This document shows, piece by piece, positions 7,161 through 42,710 of a stretch of DNA of 64,000 nucleotides. Numbering within the stretch: position 1 is the first letter of the stretch; the number at the start of each line of letters is the position of its first letter. Source of the DNA: Halothiobacillus diazotrophicus (GTDB taxonomy: Bacteria > Pseudomonadota > Gammaproteobacteria > Halothiobacillales > Halothiobacillaceae); contig NZ_CP016027.1 of assembly GCF_001663815.1 (NCBI RefSeq), positions 2,542,501 through 2,606,500 on the forward strand. The letters are read 5' to 3'. Under the pieces are notes generated by a model, which saw nothing but the letters and a program-made list of their open reading frames with translations, did not search any database and was not told the origin of the DNA. The translations under genes were made by a program, and so were the position numbers.

Positions 7161-7535
7161 ATGCACTACATTGGCAAACTTGCGGAGATGCCAGGAGTCA
7201 TTGCCGCAGGGAGTTTCACCTATAAGGGTGAAGTAATTAAATATGTGGGCCAGTTGAGCCAGAAAGAGGCGCAGCAATTGTCGTCTCTATGTGTCGCAAA
7301 CCTGCGAACGGTTCGAATGCAGGGCAATATGCTTCAAGCGCTCACCGCCTATAAACCGGGTAATGATCGTTGCGGTCTTCACTCCGCGAAGGGGTGGGTC
7401 GTGCATGGCGCACAAACGACGGTATGCGTTGTTTCGGATTCCTTCTGCATCCTCAAGAATCGTGACGGCTCCCTGAACGAAGTTCTTCACTTCATGCTCA
7501 ACGAGAAAAGGAACGCAAAAGACAATCTCATCTAA
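7161..7535 (+). CDS. DUF2173-like small protein, paralogue 1
   Basis: A 124-residue soluble protein with no signal peptide or membrane segment. It shares with the next two genes the order: N-terminal MPGVIAAGSF-type strand, 'G.(x)n LS..EA..L..LC.AN' helix, then a GWVVHGAQTTVCVV strand. This matches DUF2173, a small family of unknown function that I associate with lithotrophic and autotrophic bacteria. A GGAG site lies just before the ATG. It is less GC-rich than its two neighbours. Family membership is by pattern recognition, not a profile search. Confidence 0.7.
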   Translation: MHYIGKLAEMPGVIAAGSFTYKGEVIKYVGQLSQKEAQQLSSLCVANLRTVRMQGNMLQALTAYKPGNDRCGLHSAKGWVVHGAQTTVCVVSDSFCILKNRDGSLNEVLHFMLNEKRNAKDNLI

Positions 7536-7612
7536 TCCAGACATGGCCTGTTCATGAGCGGACTTCAGGCCAAAAGCATAACCGTAGAGCGGACATACCA
7601 AGGAGCACCATC

Positions 7613-7954
7613 ATGGCCACAATGAGTGAATTGACCCAAGTTCCCGGCGCAATTGCTGGGTTCACGTTTTCGCAAACCGGAGAGCTCATCGAATCCGATA
7701 TCAAGCCCGGCAACCATGAACTCGACGAATCAACCCTCGGGCTGCTGGCGCACATCTGTGTCGCCAATATGGCGATCAGCAACATGCAGGCGACCGGATG
7801 GGAAAAATCCAGCGATCTCAAAGGCTTTCATCCCGTCGAGGGATTCACCTTCGTCTGCGTCGATGTGTCGGTCGTCAGCCGGGGCCATCAGGCAATCGTT
7901 CTGATCAACCACGGCGCCGATTACGACAAGGCCTTTCGAGCCCTTGCTGGCTGA
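7613..7954 (+). CDS. DUF2173-like small protein, paralogue 2
   Basis: A 113-residue paralogue of the preceding gene: VPGAIAGFTFSQTGELIES, then LGLLAHICVANMAISNMQATGW and FHPVEGFTFVCVDVSVV occupy equivalent positions. It is soluble and has no cysteine pair or nucleotide motif. An AAGGAG-like site precedes the start. It lies 77 bases after paralogue 1 and 9 bases before paralogue 3, consistent with one transcript. The function is unknown. The alternation of strands and helices is compatible with a roadblock-like fold, but that is only a guess. Confidence 0.7.
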   Translation: MATMSELTQVPGAIAGFTFSQTGELIESDIKPGNHELDESTLGLLAHICVANMAISNMQATGWEKSSDLKGFHPVEGFTFVCVDVSVVSRGHQAIVLINHGADYDKAFRALAG

Positions 7955-7963
7955 GGAGGGCAC

Positions 7964-8302
7964 ATGATCAAGCAACTGAAGAACATTGAGGGTGTCCTGG
8001 CCGTGGTCGTGTTCAGTGAGGGGCTGAATCCGGAACCGATGGCCGTCCATGGCGACATGCCGATTGAAGAAGCCAAGCGCCTGTCCCGTTTCGCCAATGA
8101 CTACATGCGCATGCTGCAGGGCATGGTCGACCAGTTTGCCCACTTTGCCCCGTCCACCCGGTGGAACCCGGTCGACGGCTGGGCCGTGCATGGCCCGATG
8201 TTCTCGGCTTATGGCTGGGGCAATCTGGCCTGTGTGGTCGATAACCGGAAGGTGAATCACAACTTCATTCAGGAGGTCCGGGACGCGTTCGTCAACATGT
8301 AG
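7964..8302 (+). CDS. DUF2173-like small protein, paralogue 3
   Basis: A 112-residue third paralogue: IEGVLAVVVFSEGLNPE, a helix LSRFANDYMRMLQGMVDQF, then WNPVDGWAVHGPMFSAYGWGNLACVV. The WVVHG/WAVHG tryptophan-histidine element is shared with paralogue 1. It starts nine bases after paralogue 2 behind a GAGGAG site and is followed by a strong terminator, so it ends the operon. Three divergent copies in a row suggest a hetero-oligomer or specialised forms rather than recent duplication. No function is known to me. Confidence 0.7.
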   Translation: MIKQLKNIEGVLAVVVFSEGLNPEPMAVHGDMPIEEAKRLSRFANDYMRMLQGMVDQFAHFAPSTRWNPVDGWAVHGPMFSAYGWGNLACVVDNRKVNHNFIQEVRDAFVNM

Positions 8303-8564: not shown

Positions 8565-10244
8565 CTAAACGGCTGGCGTGCCCGAAGGAGGGAGTTTATC
8601 CAGCAATCCCAGTCGCTCCAGGCGGTAGCGGAACTGGCGTGGCGTCATGCCGAGGGTCATGGCCGCGCGGGTCTTGTTACCGCCGGTCAGGCGCAGGGCG
8701 TCGAGCAGGCTTTGCCCCTCGTCGGCGCGCACCCAGCCATAGCTGCGCTGGGCGACGTTCGGCCGGGGATCGAACAGGGGCATCGCAGGCGCCGATGCAG
8801 CGGGCATGACCGGCGCGGGCGGCGGGATGATTTTCTGCTGGGTGCCGGCTTCCAGGTGTTCGCCGATATGCGCCTCGTGCTGGAGGATCAGAATGACGTC
8901 GTCCACGGTGATCTCGCGGTTCTGCGCCACGAGCACCGCGCGCTTGATGACGTTCTCGAGCTGGCGGATGTTGCCTGGCCAGTTGTAGCTTTCCAGGCGC
9001 TCCAGTACGCCCATGCCGAATACGGTGTTGCGATCGAATTCGTGGTTGGCCGTCTGCAGGAAATGCCGGGCGAGGTGACGCACGTCGCCCGCCCGTTCGC
9101 GCAATGGGGGCAGATGGATCGGGAAAACGTTGAGCCGGTAGAAGAGGTCGATCCGGAACCGCCCTTCATTTACGGCCTTCTGCAGGTTCTTGTGGGTGGC
9201 CGCGATGATGCGCACGTTGACCGGAATGTCCTGCGTGCCGCCGACGCGCTTGATGGCCTGTTTCTCCAGCACGTGCAGCAGTTTGGATTGCAGGTCGAGG
9301 GCGAGATCGCCGATTTCGTCGAGGAACAGCGTGCCGTGGTTCGCCAGTTCGATGATCCCCTGCTTGCGCACCACCGCGCCGGTAAACGCGCCTTTCTCAT
9401 GGCCGAAGAGTTCGGATTCGAGCAGGGCCTCGGGGATGGCGGCGCAGTTGATGGCCATGAAGGGGCCGTCGCGGCGCTGGCTCGTGATGTGCACCATGCG
9501 GGCGAAGCGCTCCTTGCCCGTGCCGGATTCGCCAGCCAGTAGCACCGTGGCCTGGGTCGGCGAGACGTGCAGGGCCTGGCGCAGTGCATGCCGCAGGGCC
9601 GGGCTTTCGCCAAGGATGCCGTGGGTGACCTCCGTCTGCTGGTCCAACGCCTGTTTGAGGGCGCGGTTCTCGTCGGCCAGCAGGGCGGTTTTTTCCGCGA
9701 TGACTCGGTTCAGGCTCAGGATCTGCGCGATCAGGGTCGCCAGTACGCGCAGCAGGGTGATGTCCCGGCTGAAGGGGCGTTTGCGCCCCCGAAGGCGATG
9801 GGCGCCCAGCACGCCGAGTCGGGCGTCATTGTGGACGATGGGCACGGCGAGGAAGGCCACCGTTTCCTGGGGGAGCGTGCGACGCTCGACCGCGCGTGTC
9901 AGGTAGACGGGTTCGTCGTCGATGTTCTGGATCACGGCGACCTGGCCTGTCTGCATCACGCGGCCGGTCACGCCTTCGCCGATCACGTAATGACCGCGTT
10001 CCCGTTCCGGCGTCGTGAGGCCATAGGCGTAGCGGATGCTCATGGTTTCAGCGCCCGGGTCCTTGAGCGCGACGCGGCCACGGTTCAGGCCGATCATCTG
10101 CGACATCAGGCGCAGGATGCCGTTGATGGCTTCGTCCGGCGAACCCCCGTGGGTCATCAGTCGGGAGGCTTCGTAGATGATGAGGAGTTCGACATCCTCG
10201 ATATCGGTATCGGTTTCGAGATTCTTGATGGCGGTCAGGGTCAT
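8565..10244 (-). CDS. GAF-AAA+-Fis sigma54-dependent activator (NifA/NtrC superfamily)
   Basis: A 559-residue enhancer-binding protein. An N-terminal GAF sensor domain (about 20-178) is followed by a coiled linker, the AAA+ domain with Walker A GESGTGKE (238-245), the sigma54-contacting GAFTGA (285-290) and Walker [11 protein letters not shown] (304-313), then a proline-rich linker and a Fis-type helix-turn-helix at the C-terminus. The start at 10244 has GGAG eight bases upstream. The longer open frame to 10379 would run through the perfect palindrome at 10322-10338. It is transcribed away from the ABC transporter operon, whose promoter is sigma54-type, so it probably helps control that operon. 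The ligand of the GAF domain is unknown. Confidence 0.88.
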   Translation of the reverse strand: MTLTAIKNLETDTDIEDVELLIIYEASRLMTHGGSPDEAINGILRLMSQMIGLNRGRVALKDPGAETMSIRYAYGLTTPERERGHYVIGEGVTGRVMQTGQVAVIQNIDDEPVYLTRAVERRTLPQETVAFLAVPIVHNDARLGVLGAHRLRGRKRPFSRDITLLRVLATLIAQILSLNRVIAEKTALLADENRALKQALDQQTEVTHGILGESPALRHALRQALHVSPTQATVLLAGESGTGKERFARMVHITSQRRDGPFMAINCAAIPEALLESELFGHEKGAFTGAVVRKQGIIELANHGTLFLDEIGDLALDLQSKLLHVLEKQAIKRVGGTQDIPVNVRIIAATHKNLQKAVNEGRFRIDLFYRLNVFPIHLPPLRERAGDVRHLARHFLQTANHEFDRNTVFGMGVLERLESYNWPGNIRQLENVIKRAVLVAQNREITVDDVILILQHEAHIGEHLEAGTQQKIIPPPAPVMPAASAPAMPLFDPRPNVAQRSYGWVRADEGQSLLDALRLTGGNKTRAAMTLGMTPRQFRYRLERLGLLDKLPPSGTPAV

Positions 10245-10321
10245 GATGCGGACTCCGGGGCGTCGAGGGGCTTTCCCGATACATCGCAAAATGTGCGCCA
10301 ATCTGTCCGGTGCTTTGTAGA

Positions 10322-10338
10322 ACATTGTTCGACAATGT
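10322..10338. promoter_or_regulatory. Perfect palindrome, candidate operator/UAS of the NifA-like activator
   Basis: ACATTGT-TCG-ACAATGT is an exact inverted repeat with seven-base arms and a three-base centre. It lies 78 bases before the activator start codon and about 170 bases before the sigma54 promoter of the transporter. That placement suits a site used for autoregulation and enhancer binding. Confidence 0.55.
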
Positions 10339-10406: not shown

Positions 10407-10423
10407 TGCGCCATATTGGTGCA
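10407..10423. promoter_or_regulatory. NtrC-type binding site
   Basis: TGCGCCATATTGGTGCA differs at one base from a perfect TGCACCA-N3-TGGTGCA dyad, the known NtrC (GlnG) consensus of enteric bacteria. It is centred about 117 bases upstream of the expected transcription start of the sigma54 promoter at 10507-10521, a typical enhancer distance. Confidence 0.7.
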
Positions 10424-10506
10424 TTGTCCGCCGATGGCGCGTCATTCCTTGCTGGCGGCCGGCATTTCCTGATCTTTTTCGGGGCAGTTTGCAACTGGGG
10501 CTTGTT

Positions 10507-10521
10507 TGGCATGGGGCTTGC
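10507..10521 (+). promoter_or_regulatory. Sigma54 (-24/-12) promoter of the nitrate/cyanate-type ABC operon
   Basis: TGGCATG (10507-10513), four bases, then TTGC (10518-10521) match the -24/-12 consensus with GG and GC elements at the correct spacing. It lies 56 bases before the binding-protein start codon, downstream of an NtrC-like site and opposite a sigma54 activator gene. Confidence 0.8.
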
Positions 10522-10576
10522 GTTGTCCCTAGTGCCAACTACCTATTCGCATACTTGTTACCCCGGGAGATCGCCC

Positions 10577-11953
10577 ATGTCTGCATTTAAAAATCCCTTT
10601 GATTCCGCCATCCGACTGAAGGGCGGATGCTCCTGCGGCCAGCACAAGAGTCAGGCCGAGCACGATGCCGAGCGTGTGGCCCAGGCCGTGCCGCAGGACG
10701 AAGAGGCCGGATTGAACCGGGTCATCGAATCCACCCTGGTTCGGGCGATCTTCCCTCATGACGAAACGCGTCGTGCCTTCCTCAAGGCCGTGGGCGCCGG
10801 TACGGCCATGGCGGCCTTGTCGTCGATCTTCCCGCTGGCCTCGGCCCAGGCCCTGGCCGCCGAGGGTGCCGGCGCGCTGGAGAAGACGAAGCTGAACATC
10901 GGCTTCCTGCCGATCACTTGCGCCACGCCGCTGGTGGCCGCCGACCCCCTGGGCTTCTATGGGAAGCAGGGCCTCTCCGTCACCCTGCAGAAAACCGCCG
11001 GCTGGGCCGTGGTGCGCGACAAGACGCTGTCCGGCGCGTTCGACGCCGCGCACATGCTGGCGCCCATGCCGCTGTCGATCAGCCTGGGCGTCGGTGCCGA
11101 TCCGAGCCCGATGATGATGCCGGCCATCGAGAACATCAACGGCAACGCCATCACCCTGCACGTGAAGCACAAGGACAAGCGCGATCCCAAGCAATGGAAG
11201 GGCATGACCTTCGCGATCCCCTTCGATTACTCCATGCACAACTTCCTGCTGCGCTACTACCTGGCCGAGAACGGCCTCGATCCCGACAAGGACGTGAAGC
11301 TGCGCGTAATGGCGCCGCCGGACATGGTGGCCAACTTGCGTGCCGAGAGCATCGACGGCTTTATCGTGGCCGAGCCGTTCAACCAGCTGGCGGTGTACCA
11401 CGGCGTCGGTTTCATCCACATGCTGACGAGCGAGATCTGGAACAACCATCCCTGCTGTTCGCTCTCCGTCTCGCAGAAGTTCGTCACCGAGAACCCCAAC
11501 ACCTTCGCCGCCTTGTTCCGGGCCATCCTGACTTCCACCATGCACTGCTCCGACATGAAGAACCGGCCGGCCGTGGCCGAAGCGATCGGCGGGCCGAAGT
11601 ACCTCAACCAGCCGAAGGTCATCCTGGATCAGGTGCTGCTCGGCAAGTATGCCGACGGTCTGGGCCACGTGAAGGACGATCCGAACCGCATCAACTTCGA
11701 TCCGTTCCCCTGGGACTCCATGGCCGTGTGGATGCTGACCCAGATGAAGCGCTGGGGCTACATCAAGAAGGATATCGACTACAAGGCGGTTGCCGAGCAG
11801 GTGTTCCTCGCGACGGACGCTCGCAAGAAGATGGCCGAACTGGGCTTCACCGCGCCGGAAACCAATTACAAAAAGGACGTGATCATGGGCAAGACCTTCG
11901 ATCCGTCGAAGCCGACCGAATACCTCGAGTCCTTTGCCATCCGGAGAACCTGA
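10577..11953 (+). CDS. CmpA/NrtA-family ABC transporter substrate-binding protein
   Basis: Periplasmic binding component, 458 residues, for a nitrate/nitrite/cyanate-type or bicarbonate-type uptake system. The N-terminus is unusual: a cytoplasmic leader with GGCSCGQHKSQAEHD (16-30), then a twin-arginine signal RRAFLKAVGAG (65-75) ending near residue 92, so export should be by Tat after folding. The mature part begins KLNIGFLPITCATPLVAA, the usual NrtA opening. I chose the ATG at 10577 because GGGAGA precedes it and family leaders start this way. The NtrC site and sigma54 promoter upstream favour a nitrogen substrate over bicarbonate, but no nitrate reductase or cyanase gene is visible to decide. 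Confidence 0.9.
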   Translation: MSAFKNPFDSAIRLKGGCSCGQHKSQAEHDAERVAQAVPQDEEAGLNRVIESTLVRAIFPHDETRRAFLKAVGAGTAMAALSSIFPLASAQALAAEGAGALEKTKLNIGFLPITCATPLVAADPLGFYGKQGLSVTLQKTAGWAVVRDKTLSGAFDAAHMLAPMPLSISLGVGADPSPMMMPAIENINGNAITLHVKHKDKRDPKQWKGMTFAIPFDYSMHNFLLRYYLAENGLDPDKDVKLRVMAPPDMVANLRAESIDGFIVAEPFNQLAVYHGVGFIHMLTSEIWNNHPCCSLSVSQKFVTENPNTFAALFRAILTSTMHCSDMKNRPAVAEAIGGPKYLNQPKVILDQVLLGKYADGLGHVKDDPNRINFDPFPWDSMAVWMLTQMKRWGYIKKDIDYKAVAEQVFLATDARKKMAELGFTAPETNYKKDVIMGKTFDPSKPTEYLESFAIRRT

Positions 11954-11954
11954 C

Positions 11955-12794
11955 ATGCCGCTGTCGCTCAACCTGCGCGCCGTGATCGTTTCCCTGATCT
12001 TTCTGGCCGCATTCATCGGGATCTGGCATCTGGCGACCCTGCCGGAGCAGTCGCAGACCACCTACGCCGATCCGGCCTACGCCGCGCTGATGGGCGGGGC
12101 GTCGCCGGCCAAGTCGGGCATCCCGTCGCCGGGGATGGTCTGGCATACCGCCATGACCAACCTGTCGAATCCGTTCTACGACAATGGGCCGAACGACAAG
12201 GGGGTCGGCCTGCAATTGGCTTACTCCCTGGGCCGGGTGCTGGTGGGTTTTCTGCTGGCGATCGTGATTGGGGTCCCGCTGGGGTTCGTCATCGGCATGT
12301 CGCCGCTGATGCGCAAGGCCATGCATCCGTACATCCAGATCCTGAAACCGATCTCGCCCCTGGCCTGGATGCCGCTGGCGCTGTACACCATCAAGGACGC
12401 GTCGTTCTCGTCGATCTTCGTGATCTTCATCAGCTCGATCTGGCCGATCCTGCTCAACACGGCCCACGGCGTTGCCTCGGTGCGCAAGGACTGGCTCAAC
12501 GTGGCGAGAACGCTTGAGGTAAACCCCGTGCGCACCGCCTTCAAAGTGATCCTGCCCGCCGCGGCGCCGACCATCCTGACGGGCATGCGGATTTCCATGG
12601 GCATCGCCTGGCTCGTGATCGTGGCGGCGGAAATGCTCGTCGGCGGCACCGGGATCGGCTACTTCGTGTGGAACGAGTGGAACAACCTGGATCTGTCGAA
12701 CGTGATCTTCGCGATCTTCGTGATCGGGGCGGTGGGCATGATCCTCGACATGATTCTCGGTGCCATCGCCAAACTTGTGACCTATCAGGAGTGA
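11955..12794 (+). CDS. NrtB/CmpB-family ABC transporter permease
   Basis: Membrane component of the uptake system, 279 residues. It has an N-terminal helix, a periplasmic stretch of roughly 60 residues, then about five helices with the BPD permease coupling loop near the EVNPVRTAFKVILPAAAPTI segment that contacts the ATPase. The start at 11955 follows the binding-protein stop by one base, with GGAG eight bases before it. The ATPase gene follows after four bases, so the three genes form one operon. Confidence 0.9.
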   Translation: MPLSLNLRAVIVSLIFLAAFIGIWHLATLPEQSQTTYADPAYAALMGGASPAKSGIPSPGMVWHTAMTNLSNPFYDNGPNDKGVGLQLAYSLGRVLVGFLLAIVIGVPLGFVIGMSPLMRKAMHPYIQILKPISPLAWMPLALYTIKDASFSSIFVIFISSIWPILLNTAHGVASVRKDWLNVARTLEVNPVRTAFKVILPAAAPTILTGMRISMGIAWLVIVAAEMLVGGTGIGYFVWNEWNNLDLSNVIFAIFVIGAVGMILDMILGAIAKLVTYQE

Positions 12795-12798
12795 TTGA

Positions 12799-13683
12799 AT
12801 GAGCCAGCCTTTCCTCAAAGTCGAAGGACTGAAAAAGGTCTTCCCCGGGGTCGGGGGTGGCGCGGACGTCACCGTATTCGAGAACATCCATTTCGGATTC
12901 GAGAAGGGGGAGTTCGTCTGCATCATCGGCCACTCCGGCTGCGGGAAATCGACGATCCTGAACGTGCTGGCCGGGCTGGATTCCGCCACGGCCGGCAACG
13001 TCTTCATGAACGGGCGCGAGGTATCCGGGCCGAGCCTGGATCGCGGCGTGGTGTTCCAGAGCCACGCCCTGATGCCCTGGCTCACCGTGATCGAGAATGT
13101 GGCTTTCGCGGTTTCGTCGCGCTGGCCGGATTGGTCGCGCGGCAAGGTTCAGACCCAATGCGAGAAGTACCTCGATCTCGTGGGGCTGGGCCACGCCCTG
13201 CACAAGAAGCCGCATCAGCTGTCCGGCGGTATGAAGCAGCGGGTGGGGATCGCCCGAGCTTTTTCCATCGAGCCGAAAATGCTGTTGATGGACGAGCCCT
13301 TCGGGGCGCTCGACGCCCTGACCCGGGGCGTGATTCAGGACGAACTGGTGCGGATCTGTTCGGCCACCCAGCAGACGGTGTTCATGATCACCCACGACGT
13401 GGACGAGGCGATTCTGCTTGCCGACAAGATCGTGCTGATGTCGAACGGACCCGAGGCCAAGATCGCCGAAATCGTGGAGAACCCGCTGGCGCGACCGCGT
13501 CTGCGTTCGATCATCCACCACGAGCCGGATTTCTACCCGCTGCGCAATCATCTGGTGGATTTCCTCGTGACGCGTTCCAAGCGGATTGCGGAGGGGCATC
13601 TGCCCGAGGGCTACGATCCCATGCATCCGCCCCTGGTTCGTCCGACTGCGCCGGCGGAATCGCCGATGGCGGAAGTCGGCTGA
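12799..13683 (+). CDS. NrtD/CynD-type ABC transporter ATP-binding protein
   Basis: Cytoplasmic ATPase of the same transporter, 294 residues. Walker A GHSGCGKST, the ABC signature LSGGMKQR, Walker B MLLMDEPFGALD and the H-loop MITHDVDEA are intact. It is the single-ATPase (NrtD/TauB/SsuB-like) form without the extra binding-protein domain of NrtC. The C-terminal 70 residues extend past the core fold with a proline-rich end. It is last in the operon and converges on the EamA transporter with no clear terminator in the 15-base gap. Confidence 0.92.
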   Translation: MSQPFLKVEGLKKVFPGVGGGADVTVFENIHFGFEKGEFVCIIGHSGCGKSTILNVLAGLDSATAGNVFMNGREVSGPSLDRGVVFQSHALMPWLTVIENVAFAVSSRWPDWSRGKVQTQCEKYLDLVGLGHALHKKPHQLSGGMKQRVGIARAFSIEPKMLLMDEPFGALDALTRGVIQDELVRICSATQQTVFMITHDVDEAILLADKIVLMSNGPEAKIAEIVENPLARPRLRSIIHHEPDFYPLRNHLVDFLVTRSKRIAEGHLPEGYDPMHPPLVRPTAPAESPMAEVG

Positions 13684-14769: not shown

Positions 14770-15303
14770 TCAGAAATCCCGCTCGACCTTGAAGGTGTTG
14801 AAGATGATGTCGGCCGAGACGTTGCGGGCAGCGTGGGCCACGGCGTCGAAGATGTCGCGATCCGTCCAGCCGAGCGCCTTCAGGGCGGCGATATCGTCGG
14901 CGTTCACCGCGAGCGGGGTTTTCACGGACTTGAGCGTGAACAGCAGCATCGCCTTGTCCTTGGGATCCAGGATCGCCTGATTGGGATCCTGTCGCGTCGC
15001 CGCGACCTGCTCCGGGGTCTGTTCGCAGCGATTGATGAGCAGGGCGGCATTGAAGTCCACGCAGTAGTCGCAGTGATGCGCCTGCGAGACCAGCATCCGC
15101 GTGGTCGCCAGCAGCGGCAGGCTGAGGGTGGGGTGGTTGAAGAAGTACCCGAGGACCTCCAGATTCATGCGGAGCTGCTCCGGGCTCGCGCTCATCAGTT
15201 GCATGATGTTGGGCACCCAGCCCAGTCTTTCCTTGAGTTGGTCGTAGCTTTCGGCCAGTGCACCGGTCGCCTGTTCGGGGGGGACGGTTGAGATCAAAGA
15301 CAT
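14770..15303 (-). CDS. Carboxymuconolactone decarboxylase/AhpD-like protein
   Basis: A 177-residue all-helical protein of the CMD family with HHCDYCVDFNA (76-86). The CxxC pair (78 and 81) and the following residues resemble the AhpD redox site, so a peroxide- or electrophile-reducing role is more likely than true decarboxylation. It is monocistronic, with its own terminator. A near-perfect palindrome at 15346-15367, matching one in front of the adjacent tetR, lies 43 bases before the start codon. This suggests TetR-controlled expression in response to an unidentified, possibly electrophilic, inducer. Confidence 0.82.
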   Translation of the reverse strand: MSLISTVPPEQATGALAESYDQLKERLGWVPNIMQLMSASPEQLRMNLEVLGYFFNHPTLSLPLLATTRMLVSQAHHCDYCVDFNAALLINRCEQTPEQVAATRQDPNQAILDPKDKAMLLFTLKSVKTPLAVNADDIAALKALGWTDRDIFDAVAHAARNVSADIIFNTFKVERDF

Positions 15304-15345
15304 GACGGCTCTCCTGTGTTCAACTGCGTATCGGTCATAAAACTG

Positions 15346-15367
15346 TCATACCGACCATTCGGTATGA
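15346..15367. promoter_or_regulatory. TetR-type operator before the AhpD-like gene
   Basis: TCATACCGA-CCAT-TCGGTATGA is a perfect inverted repeat with nine-base arms. The ATACCGACC core recurs at the tetR start region (16097-16110), so the neighbouring TetR protein is the likely binder. Confidence 0.7.
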
Positions 15368-15428
15368 CGCGTGCCCAAAAAAAATCGCGACTCCTTGGGC
15401 GCGATTCCCCGGGTTGGTTGGTGCCGTC

Positions 15429-16085
15429 TCAGCCGCTATGCGGCCCAAGATTCAGCACGTAATTGCGTAACTGCGAAAGGCATTGCTGGAACACGGCCAC
15501 CGATTGGCGGTTCTTGGCCATGCCCCAGCAACCCTCCCAGGCGGAAACGATGAACAGCGCCGCGCTGCCGCAATCGACGTCCGGACGGATCTGGCCCTGG
15601 GCCTGACCCGTGACCAGGGCCTGTTCGATGACGGATTGCCAGGTCTGGAGAATCTCGTTGAGGCGCGCCTTGAAGTCATCGTCCAGGGGGCTCATTTCCT
15701 GCGTCAGGTTATTCAGCGGGCAACCCAGCCGGATCGATTCGTCGGTCATGGTCTCCCGGCGGAACTGCAGGTAGTCGAGCAGGGCCTCCACCGGCCTTTC
15801 GGCGTGGCGAAGGGGATCCAGTATCCGTTCTGCAAGGCTGGGAAGGATGACCTCGTCCACGACGGCCAGCCCCAACTGCTGCTTGGAGGGGAAGTGATGG
15901 TACAGCGCGCCCTTGGTCAGTCCGGTGTCGGAGAGAATCTTGGCGATACTGGCCGCCTGGAAACCGCAGCGATGAATCTCGCTGGCGGCCGACTGCAGGA
16001 TCTTTTCCCGGTTGATGTCGGGCGTCTGATCCCGGGGCTCGTCCGGGGCGGGCGTGCTGCGCGTCTCGTGTGCTGTCTGGTTCAT
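15429..16085 (-). CDS. TetR family transcriptional regulator
   Basis: A 218-residue repressor. The N-terminal helix-turn-helix domain (about 25-75) contains AASIAKILSDTGLTKGALYHHFPSK split over its usual helices, including the signature GALYHHFPSK. The C-terminal ligand domain resembles the TetR_C_6 type of stress-response repressors. The start at 16085 was chosen because the operator-like ATACCG...CGGTAT lies directly upstream, and the longer open frame would run into ampD's upstream region. Presence of the same palindrome here and before the AhpD-like gene implies autoregulation plus control of that gene. The ligand is unknown. Confidence 0.88.
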   Translation of the reverse strand: MNQTAHETRSTPAPDEPRDQTPDINREKILQSAASEIHRCGFQAASIAKILSDTGLTKGALYHHFPSKQQLGLAVVDEVILPSLAERILDPLRHAERPVEALLDYLQFRRETMTDESIRLGCPLNNLTQEMSPLDDDFKARLNEILQTWQSVIEQALVTGQAQGQIRPDVDCGSAALFIVSAWEGCWGMAKNRQSVAVFQQCLSQLRNYVLNLGPHSG

Positions 16086-16096
16086 GGATCGTTTAG

Positions 16097-16110
16097 ATAC
16101 CGACCGGTAT
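16097..16110. promoter_or_regulatory. TetR-type operator before tetR
   Basis: ATACCG-AC-CGGTAT, an inverted repeat twelve bases before the tetR start codon, shares its ATACCGACC half with the operator at 15346-15367. Confidence 0.65.
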
Positions 16111-16244
16111 GTATGTTGGAATGATCTTAGTCTCCGTCCGGTATTTTGGCAAGTCGCACCGCGAACATTCGTGGCTTGACCCCATGCGGGCCCGGCGGTA
16201 ATTTTTTTCGCACGCGACGCCAGCAACAAGGCAGGGAGCAACAG

Positions 16245-41180: not shown

Positions 41181-42710
41181 ATGTCAGATCTTCAGCCTCA
41201 TGCCGTCATCGCCGCACCGCCCGAAATCGCGTCGGCGCTGCAGGAATGGTTGGCCCTGCTGGGGGTGGCGACCATATCCCGGGCCGATCCGGGTATCGTG
41301 CGTCTGTCCGATCAACTGATCGGCGGCTTCTGTTATGGCGATCTGTGCGGTGACAGCCTGCAGGCTGCGCAGGGCTTGCCCTGGGTGGCACTGGATCCGG
41401 AGCCGGGACGCTGGCTGGGAGAGGCACGTCCGCCGTTTGCCGGTTTGCCCTGGCCTTGCACGTTGTCGGCGTTGCAGGGCGTCACCGGCCGTTTGCTCAG
41501 CCGCTGGCGCAATGCCCAGCTGGTGGCTGCCGGCCGGGGACTGGTCGGGGACAGCCCCGGCATGCGTCGATTGCGGGCCGAGATCGAGCAGGTGGCGCCG
41601 AGCGAAGCCACGGTGCTGATTCTGGGCGAGTCGGGCACCGGCAAGGAGGTCGTGGCCCGGATGATCCACCGGTTGTCGAATCGCGCGAGCAAACCGTTCA
41701 TCCCTGTCAACTGCGGGGCGATTCCGGCGGAACTGCTGGAATCGGAATTGTTCGGGCATGAAAAGGGTGCCTTTACCGGGGCCATCAGTGCACGGGCCGG
41801 TCGCTTCGAACTGGCCGAGGGCGGGACGCTGTTCCTGGATGAGATCGGCGACATGCCCCTGCCGATGCAGGTCAAGATTCTGCGGGTGTTGCAGGAACGG
41901 ACCTTCGAGCGGGTGGGCGGCCGTCAGACCATGACGGCGGATGTCCGGATCATTGCGGCAACCCATCGCGATCTCGAGGCCTATATCGAGGCGGGTACCT
42001 TCCGCCAGGATCTGTACTACCGCCTCAATGTCTTCCCGCTGGAAACCCTGCCCCTCCGTGAGCTTCGGGGGGACATCCCGCTGATCGTCGAGGCGCTGAC
42101 CCGCCGCTTCGCAGCCGATGGCCGGACAGTTGGTCAGCTGACCGAGCGAGCGTTAGCCGCGTTGGCGTCCTTGCCCTGGCCGGGCAACGTCCGCGAGCTG
42201 GGTAACGTGGTCGAACGTCTGGGCATTCTCTACCCTGGGCAGACCATCGATCTGGCGCAGTTGCCGCCGAAACTTCGGGATCAGCTGCCGCCGGAGTGGC
42301 AGGCGGACATGGCGTCGGCTATCGTCGACCCCCCGATCGAGGATGCTGCGCCGACTGAATCTGTCCGGTCGGTCGAAACCGTTGAGGCGACCCTGGAAGA
42401 TCCGGATCCCCGCGATATCTTCGCCATGGGGCGGGTCGAAACGGCCCAAGTCGTTGGCGCCCCTCCGGTTTTGCCGACCGATGCCCTGACGCTGGCGTCG
42501 TTTCAGATCGAGCTGCCGGACGGCGGTTTCGACCTGAAGGGGCAGCTCGAGGCCATCGAGCAGGCCTGGATCGATGCCGCGCTGAATCAGAGCGACGGCG
42601 TCGTGGCCCAGGCGGCGCGCCTGCTGGGCATCCGGCGGACGACCCTTGTCGAGAAATTGCGCAAGTACCAGATGTCCTTCCGTTCCGGCGCTCAGGAAGA
42701 CGACGCCTAA
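41181..42710 (+). CDS. FleQ/FlrA-type sigma54-dependent flagellar activator
   Basis: A 509-residue enhancer-binding protein, master regulator type. It has an N-terminal FleQ-like domain (1-115) without a phospho-acceptor receiver pattern, then the AAA+ domain with Walker A GESGTGKE (149-156), GAFTGA (196-201) and [10 protein letters not shown], and a Fis-type helix-turn-helix at the C-terminus ([19 protein letters not shown]). A 90-residue acidic, low-complexity linker (about 375-460) before the last domain is longer than usual. It lies immediately upstream of the sigma54 promoter of fliE, its probable target. Confidence 0.9.

Follow-up and report, generated by a model that had tools for sequence, protein, structure and literature searches.

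The stretch at 10407-10576 of the window, by which we mean the whole 64-kb stretch of DNA analysed, is a real nitrogen-stress promoter of a sulfur-oxidising bacterium, and the genes that it turns on very probably encode a cyanate importer. We are fairly confident in the following overall explanation: the divergent genes cynF and cynABD share one control region, which would receive inputs from both NtrC and CynF, and the cynABD products would import cyanate. The cynF and cynABD genes are a further example of a system type that is already known, and the most novel part of the system is an oxidoreductase operon that is linked to them.

The cynF-cynA control region

As the earlier note had claimed, the dyad TGCGCCATATTGGTGCA (10407-10423) is 17 bp long and differs at one base from the NtrC consensus TGCACCN5GGTGCA. 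It was the sole match with one mismatch or fewer when the 64-kb window was scanned, and when the 330-bp intergenic region was shuffled 4000 times with its dinucleotides preserved, an equally good match appeared only 6 times. The correctly spaced -24/-12 promoter that had been described before a CmpA/NrtA-family transporter was also confirmed: TGGCATGGGGCTTGC (10507-10521, plus strand) shows the correct GG/GC spacing and one mismatch from TGGCACGN4TTGC, with equally good matches in 54 of the 4000 shuffles, and the gene for the substrate-binding protein begins at 10577. The position of the NtrC-type dyad falls in the range of 80-200 bp 5' of this promoter. From the dyad centre, the distance to the cynA start expected from the -12 element is ~118 bp, and that to the expected cynF start is ~140 bp. 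A position ~118 bp upstream corresponds to the usual enhancer distance.

On the other side of the region, we found three features that the earlier note had not seen. A cynF-like gene for a sigma54 activator lies at 8565-10244 on the minus strand, and it is preceded by a sigma54-type -24/-12 element of its own, TGGCGCACATTTTGC (10286-10300, minus strand). The third feature is a second conserved dyad, TGTAGAACATTGTTCGACA (10316-10334), with the core GAACATTGTTC at 10320-10330. When the control regions of the 18 orthologs from the wider family were aligned, four conserved blocks were observed, namely the sigma54-type element of the activator gene, a dyad of the GRACAWTGTYC type, a GC-N11-GC dyad that has TGGTGC at its end, and the cynABD sigma54 promoter. 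The GG and GC of the cynABD element were invariant (18/18), and the GG-N10-GC of the cynF element was kept in 17 of the 18. In most of these orthologs the NtrC-type dyad could be recognised by its GC-N11-GC and TGGTGC, often with a left half that is degraded. It has 3 mismatches in the closest relative, a Halothiobacillus MAG whose CynA is 90% identical, and it was lost in some other relatives in the alignment. The GRACAWTGTYC dyad, by its conservation, is a candidate CynF operator.

The activator gene remains linked to the three transporter genes at each of the 11 orthologous loci read in detail, one of which is from another family, and the other neighbouring genes of the window were not found in 10 of these 11. 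Three tandem DUF2173 genes (7161-8302) lie between the cox genes and cynF; the closest relative has them at the corresponding position, and they were not found at the remaining 10 of the loci read in detail. On the 3' side of cynABD, a peroxidase-related (carboxymuconolactone decarboxylase-like) gene and a TetR-like regulator gene are located at 14770-16120.

NtrC and CynF as candidate inputs

The earlier reading depended on the presence of NtrC and sigma54. In family searches of the genome of the window, which is complete (2.91 Mb), a full NtrC scored 716 bits, where the cut-off is 558.6, and a single RpoN scored 477 bits, where it is 277. With at most one mismatch, the NtrC consensus occurs at 6 sites genome-wide, compared with 1 for a reversed control pattern, and 4 of the 6 precede nitrogen genes: glnA, the nas cluster, a TRAP transporter/gamma-glutamyltransferase operon, and the genes in the window. 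At glnA, where the earlier note had suggested that the same dyad be sought, the dyad TGCGCCAAATCGGTGCA was indeed present and a -24/-12 element, CGGCACGATTCGTGC, lies between it and the gene. At the nas cluster, the dyad TGCACGCTATTGGTGCA is followed by a -24/-12-like element, TGGCACAGAAAATGC. The NtrC-type dyad TGCGCCATAATGGTGCA and the perfect -24/-12 element TGGCACGACCATTGC stand before the genes for a TRAP transporter (DctPQM) and a gamma-glutamyltransferase (C1:876437-881474); with the gene names read from sequence, these form a probable nitrogen-scavenging operon. Two hits were set aside: that at 1004303 lies inside a predicted ORF, and within ~600 bp of that at 2014983 there is no sigma54 GG+GC element at two mismatches or fewer.

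Perfect GCACCAN3TGGTGC cores were found at only two places in the genome, ~207 bp 5' of ntrB and beside cynS. The minus-strand core of the window dyad, GCACCAATATGGCGC, and the site upstream of ntrBC, GCACCAATATGGTGC, are one base apart. The perfect core ~40 bp 5' of cynS was given little weight as evidence because the closest relative has none at that place. Another protein with a sigma54-activator domain is encoded in the window at 41181-42710, and it matches the NtrC model in its central part only.

The cynF-like protein (559 aa) is composed of a GAF domain, an AAA+ domain carrying GAFTGA at residue 285 and Walker A at 238, and a Fis-type helix-turn-helix. The protein is related to NifA (PDB 9qq6, 1.4e-87). 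Its identification as NifA was rejected, since its TIGR01817 score of 459.7 bits is below the cut-off of 528.85 and the genome has another NifA candidate. This one, a NifA-like activator of 545 aa, was read from the sequence at C1:355211-362630 beside nifD- and nifH-like genes. The organism is probably a diazotroph, judging from these genes.

The gene at 8565-10244 appears to match Pseudomonas cynF by its arrangement and domain type, and it is on these features, not on direct sequence comparison, that the likeness to Pseudomonas CynF and CynA rests. In the cynFABDS cluster of P. pseudoalcaligenes CECT5344, cynF is divergent from cynA at a distance of 268 bp, a putative sigma54 promoter precedes cynA, and CynF is essential (PMC6627978). 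The cyn genes of this strain are induced by cyanate and repressed by ammonium, for which the authors suggested the Ntr system, and a sigma70 promoter was reported for cynF (PMC6627978). Both systems have a divergent Fis-type sigma54 activator gene 5' of cynABD, a putative sigma54 promoter before cynA, an ABC transporter (substrate-binding protein, permease and ATPase), and a cyanase in the genome. In contrast to the Pseudomonas system, the cynF promoter is of the sigma54 type here, and an NtrC dyad was identified in the control region. This dyad is likely to be the physical basis of the reported ammonium repression of cyn genes.

With a CynF-type sigma54 activator encoded next to the transporter genes as the closest regulator, NtrC probably shares the control with a second input and is not the sole activator. 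The earlier claim of nitrogen regulation was supported, as the genome has both NtrC and RpoN and the dyad recurs at glnA and nas; it was incomplete in that it left out this second regulator. From the arrangement of the sites, we infer that cynABD transcription would require sigma54 at 10507-10521. When nitrogen is limiting, the phosphorylated form of NtrC would bind 10407-10423 and act on cynABD, and perhaps on the divergent cynF promoter as well. CynF may sense cyanate or a related signal via its GAF domain, and it would bind 10316-10334 and activate both cynABD and the linked osmC-to-rhodanese operon. At the shared divergent sigma54 promoters, NtrC would provide the ammonium control and CynF the cyanate induction. 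In the NtrC-NifA cascade of diazotrophs, a global NtrC and a dedicated NifA-like GAF activator likewise both work with sigma54; the system here differs in that cyanate use, not nitrogenase, would be controlled and in that the separate NifA candidate lies beside nifH/nifD.

The TGGTGC dyad might instead be the CynF site, in which case CynF alone would drive the promoter and ammonium control would be indirect. We regard this as unlikely. It would agree with the conserved linkage of cynF, which is encoded next door, and with the variation of the left half of the dyad among relatives; however, the same dyad stands before glnA, ntrBC and the TRAP/gamma-glutamyltransferase operon, none of which adjoins cynF, and CynF could use the other conserved dyad. 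Furthermore, of 49 loci that have a sigma54 promoter and no cynF-like gene detected nearby, 10 carry an NtrC-type dyad at the cynA promoter, against 0.70 expected from shuffles, although the named loci behind this count are related and the counts are not independent. We propose 10407-10423 as an NtrC site on these grounds.

Cyanase and the linked osmC operon

The gene cynS is located at C1:2534241-2534669, ~19 kb upstream of cynA, and its product passes both cyanase models (175 bits against a cut-off of 113.3). This position differs from that in CECT5344: in the Pseudomonas-type arrangement the cyanase gene is within the operon, a feature that we do not hold to be essential, whereas here cynS is distant and divergent from an osmC/ACAD operon. 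A cynS-like gene directly follows the ATPase gene in 63 of the 71 named orthologous loci with enough downstream DNA. Within the family, cyanase was found in all 18 genomes with this cynA, compared with 1 of 10 without cynA. The copy on a Methylobacterium plasmid is annotated as sigma54 regulator, substrate-binding protein, permease, ATPase and cynS (cyanase), with the activator gene divergent. In Guyparkeria, a cyn gene was reported in all genomes (PMC9032823).

The operon divergent from cynS (C1:2535104-2539901, outside the window) encodes OsmC, an acyl-CoA-dehydrogenase-like flavoprotein, a rubredoxin/FAD reductase, a rhodanese and a CopD-like membrane protein. In relatives it lies between cynS and cynF, and in the genome of the window the genes from cox to DUF2173 stand as a block between it and cynF. 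The flavoprotein gene is present in exactly 18 of 28 genomes, which are those with cynA (18/18 vs 0/10). Our literature searches found no paper on the osmC/ACAD/rubredoxin/rhodanese cluster. On a Moraxella osloensis plasmid, a gene of the carboxymuconolactone decarboxylase family adjoins acyl-CoA-dehydrogenase/FAD reductase/cynABD genes.

The core of the second dyad, in the form GGACAWTGTCC, was also found at the promoter of the linked osmC operon, and it recurs there in nearly all family members tested. Often two such cores are present at 32-bp spacing, ~80-120 bp 5' of a sigma54-type promoter. In one Guyparkeria-type genome, the only two GGACAWTGTCC sites both precede the osmC operon; the form of the core differs at cynA in Guyparkeria. 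Hits outside the cyn cluster were taken as chance, as they lie inside predicted genes. The candidate CynF operator would tie cyanate uptake to this uncharacterised oxidoreductase operon. We suggest, tentatively and with less than even confidence, that CynF controls both cyanate import and a second, undescribed oxidative operon through which cyanate is generated or processed from a precursor containing sulfur or a nitrile. In that case, a new pathway would terminate in cyanate use and be coupled to nitrogen status via NtrC and CynF.

The exact co-occurrence of cynA with the flavoprotein of the rubredoxin-reductase/rhodanese operon, and the candidate CynF operator that the two share, could also be explained if the imported anion were a different small pseudohalide or one that contains sulfur, for instance thiocyanate, from which the flavoprotein operon would form cyanate inside the cell. 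This appears quite improbable to us, since the majority of the cynABD-cynS operons of beta- and alphaproteobacteria have no such operon within reach, and since cyanate is what the Pseudomonas system acts on.

The transporter and its substrate

The three genes of the NrtA/CmpA-family transporter form one operon on the plus strand: cynA (10577-11953) encodes a Tat-exported CmpA/NrtA-family substrate-binding protein with an HPCC motif, cynB (11955-12794) a permease scoring above the TIGR01183 cut-off, and cynD (12799-13683) an ATP-binding protein scoring above that of TIGR01184. The best solved homologs of CynA are the substrate-binding-protein-like domain of the nitrate-transporter protein NrtC, and NrtA. 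Lys269 of NrtA contacts nitrate (PMC13204499) and, together with H196, balances the nitrate charge (PMC8786288). When CynA was aligned with 80 named orthologs from beta-, alpha- and gammaproteobacteria (58-90% identity), HPCC was found in 80/80 where NrtA has PEK, so that the lysine is replaced by cysteine and an equivalent of NrtA Lys269 is absent from CynA. A separate canonical nrtABC is encoded beside the nas genes, and its NrtA keeps PEK.

Cyanate is the best-supported reading of the transported substrate because of the cynS linkage, the co-occurrence of cynA and cynS, the HPCC motif and the separate nrtABC with PEK. This would give a concrete substrate to a transporter that is automatically annotated as nitrate or CmpA/NrtA. 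As an ABC importer, CynABD would bring in cyanate, which cyanase would convert to ammonium and CO2. Of the earlier proposal that nitrate, nitrite or cyanate is taken up rather than bicarbonate, the nitrogenous nature of the substrate was retained; the choice was narrowed to cyanate, with nitrate given low weight.

On sequence grounds, nitrate and bicarbonate are both unlikely substrates of CynABD. Import of nitrate or nitrite could be argued from the permease and ATPase, which pass nitrate-transporter models, and from the solved homologs of the binding protein. The transporter shares with NrtABC (2g29; 8w9m) the family of the binding protein by sequence and the model matches of permease and ATPase; it differs in the ligand-contact lysine, which is cysteine in every ortholog, and in its linkage to cyanase and CynF, not to nitrate reductase. 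With the nrtABC that retains the canonical lysine also at hand beside nas, we consider nitrate or nitrite import very improbable. Import of bicarbonate for carbon fixation in the manner of CmpABCD has hardly any likelihood: the organism is probably a chemoautotroph and the family is named CmpA/NrtA, but the NtrC/sigma54 control, the cyanase linkage and HPCC in the ligand-site region (compared with NrtA, not with the CmpA residue) speak against it. As a sequence signature, HPCC may separate cyanate importers from nitrate importers.

The N-terminus of CynA (10577-10766) has ~62 residues ahead of its twin-arginine signal, and these include a CxCGxH motif that is present in 70 of the 80 orthologs.
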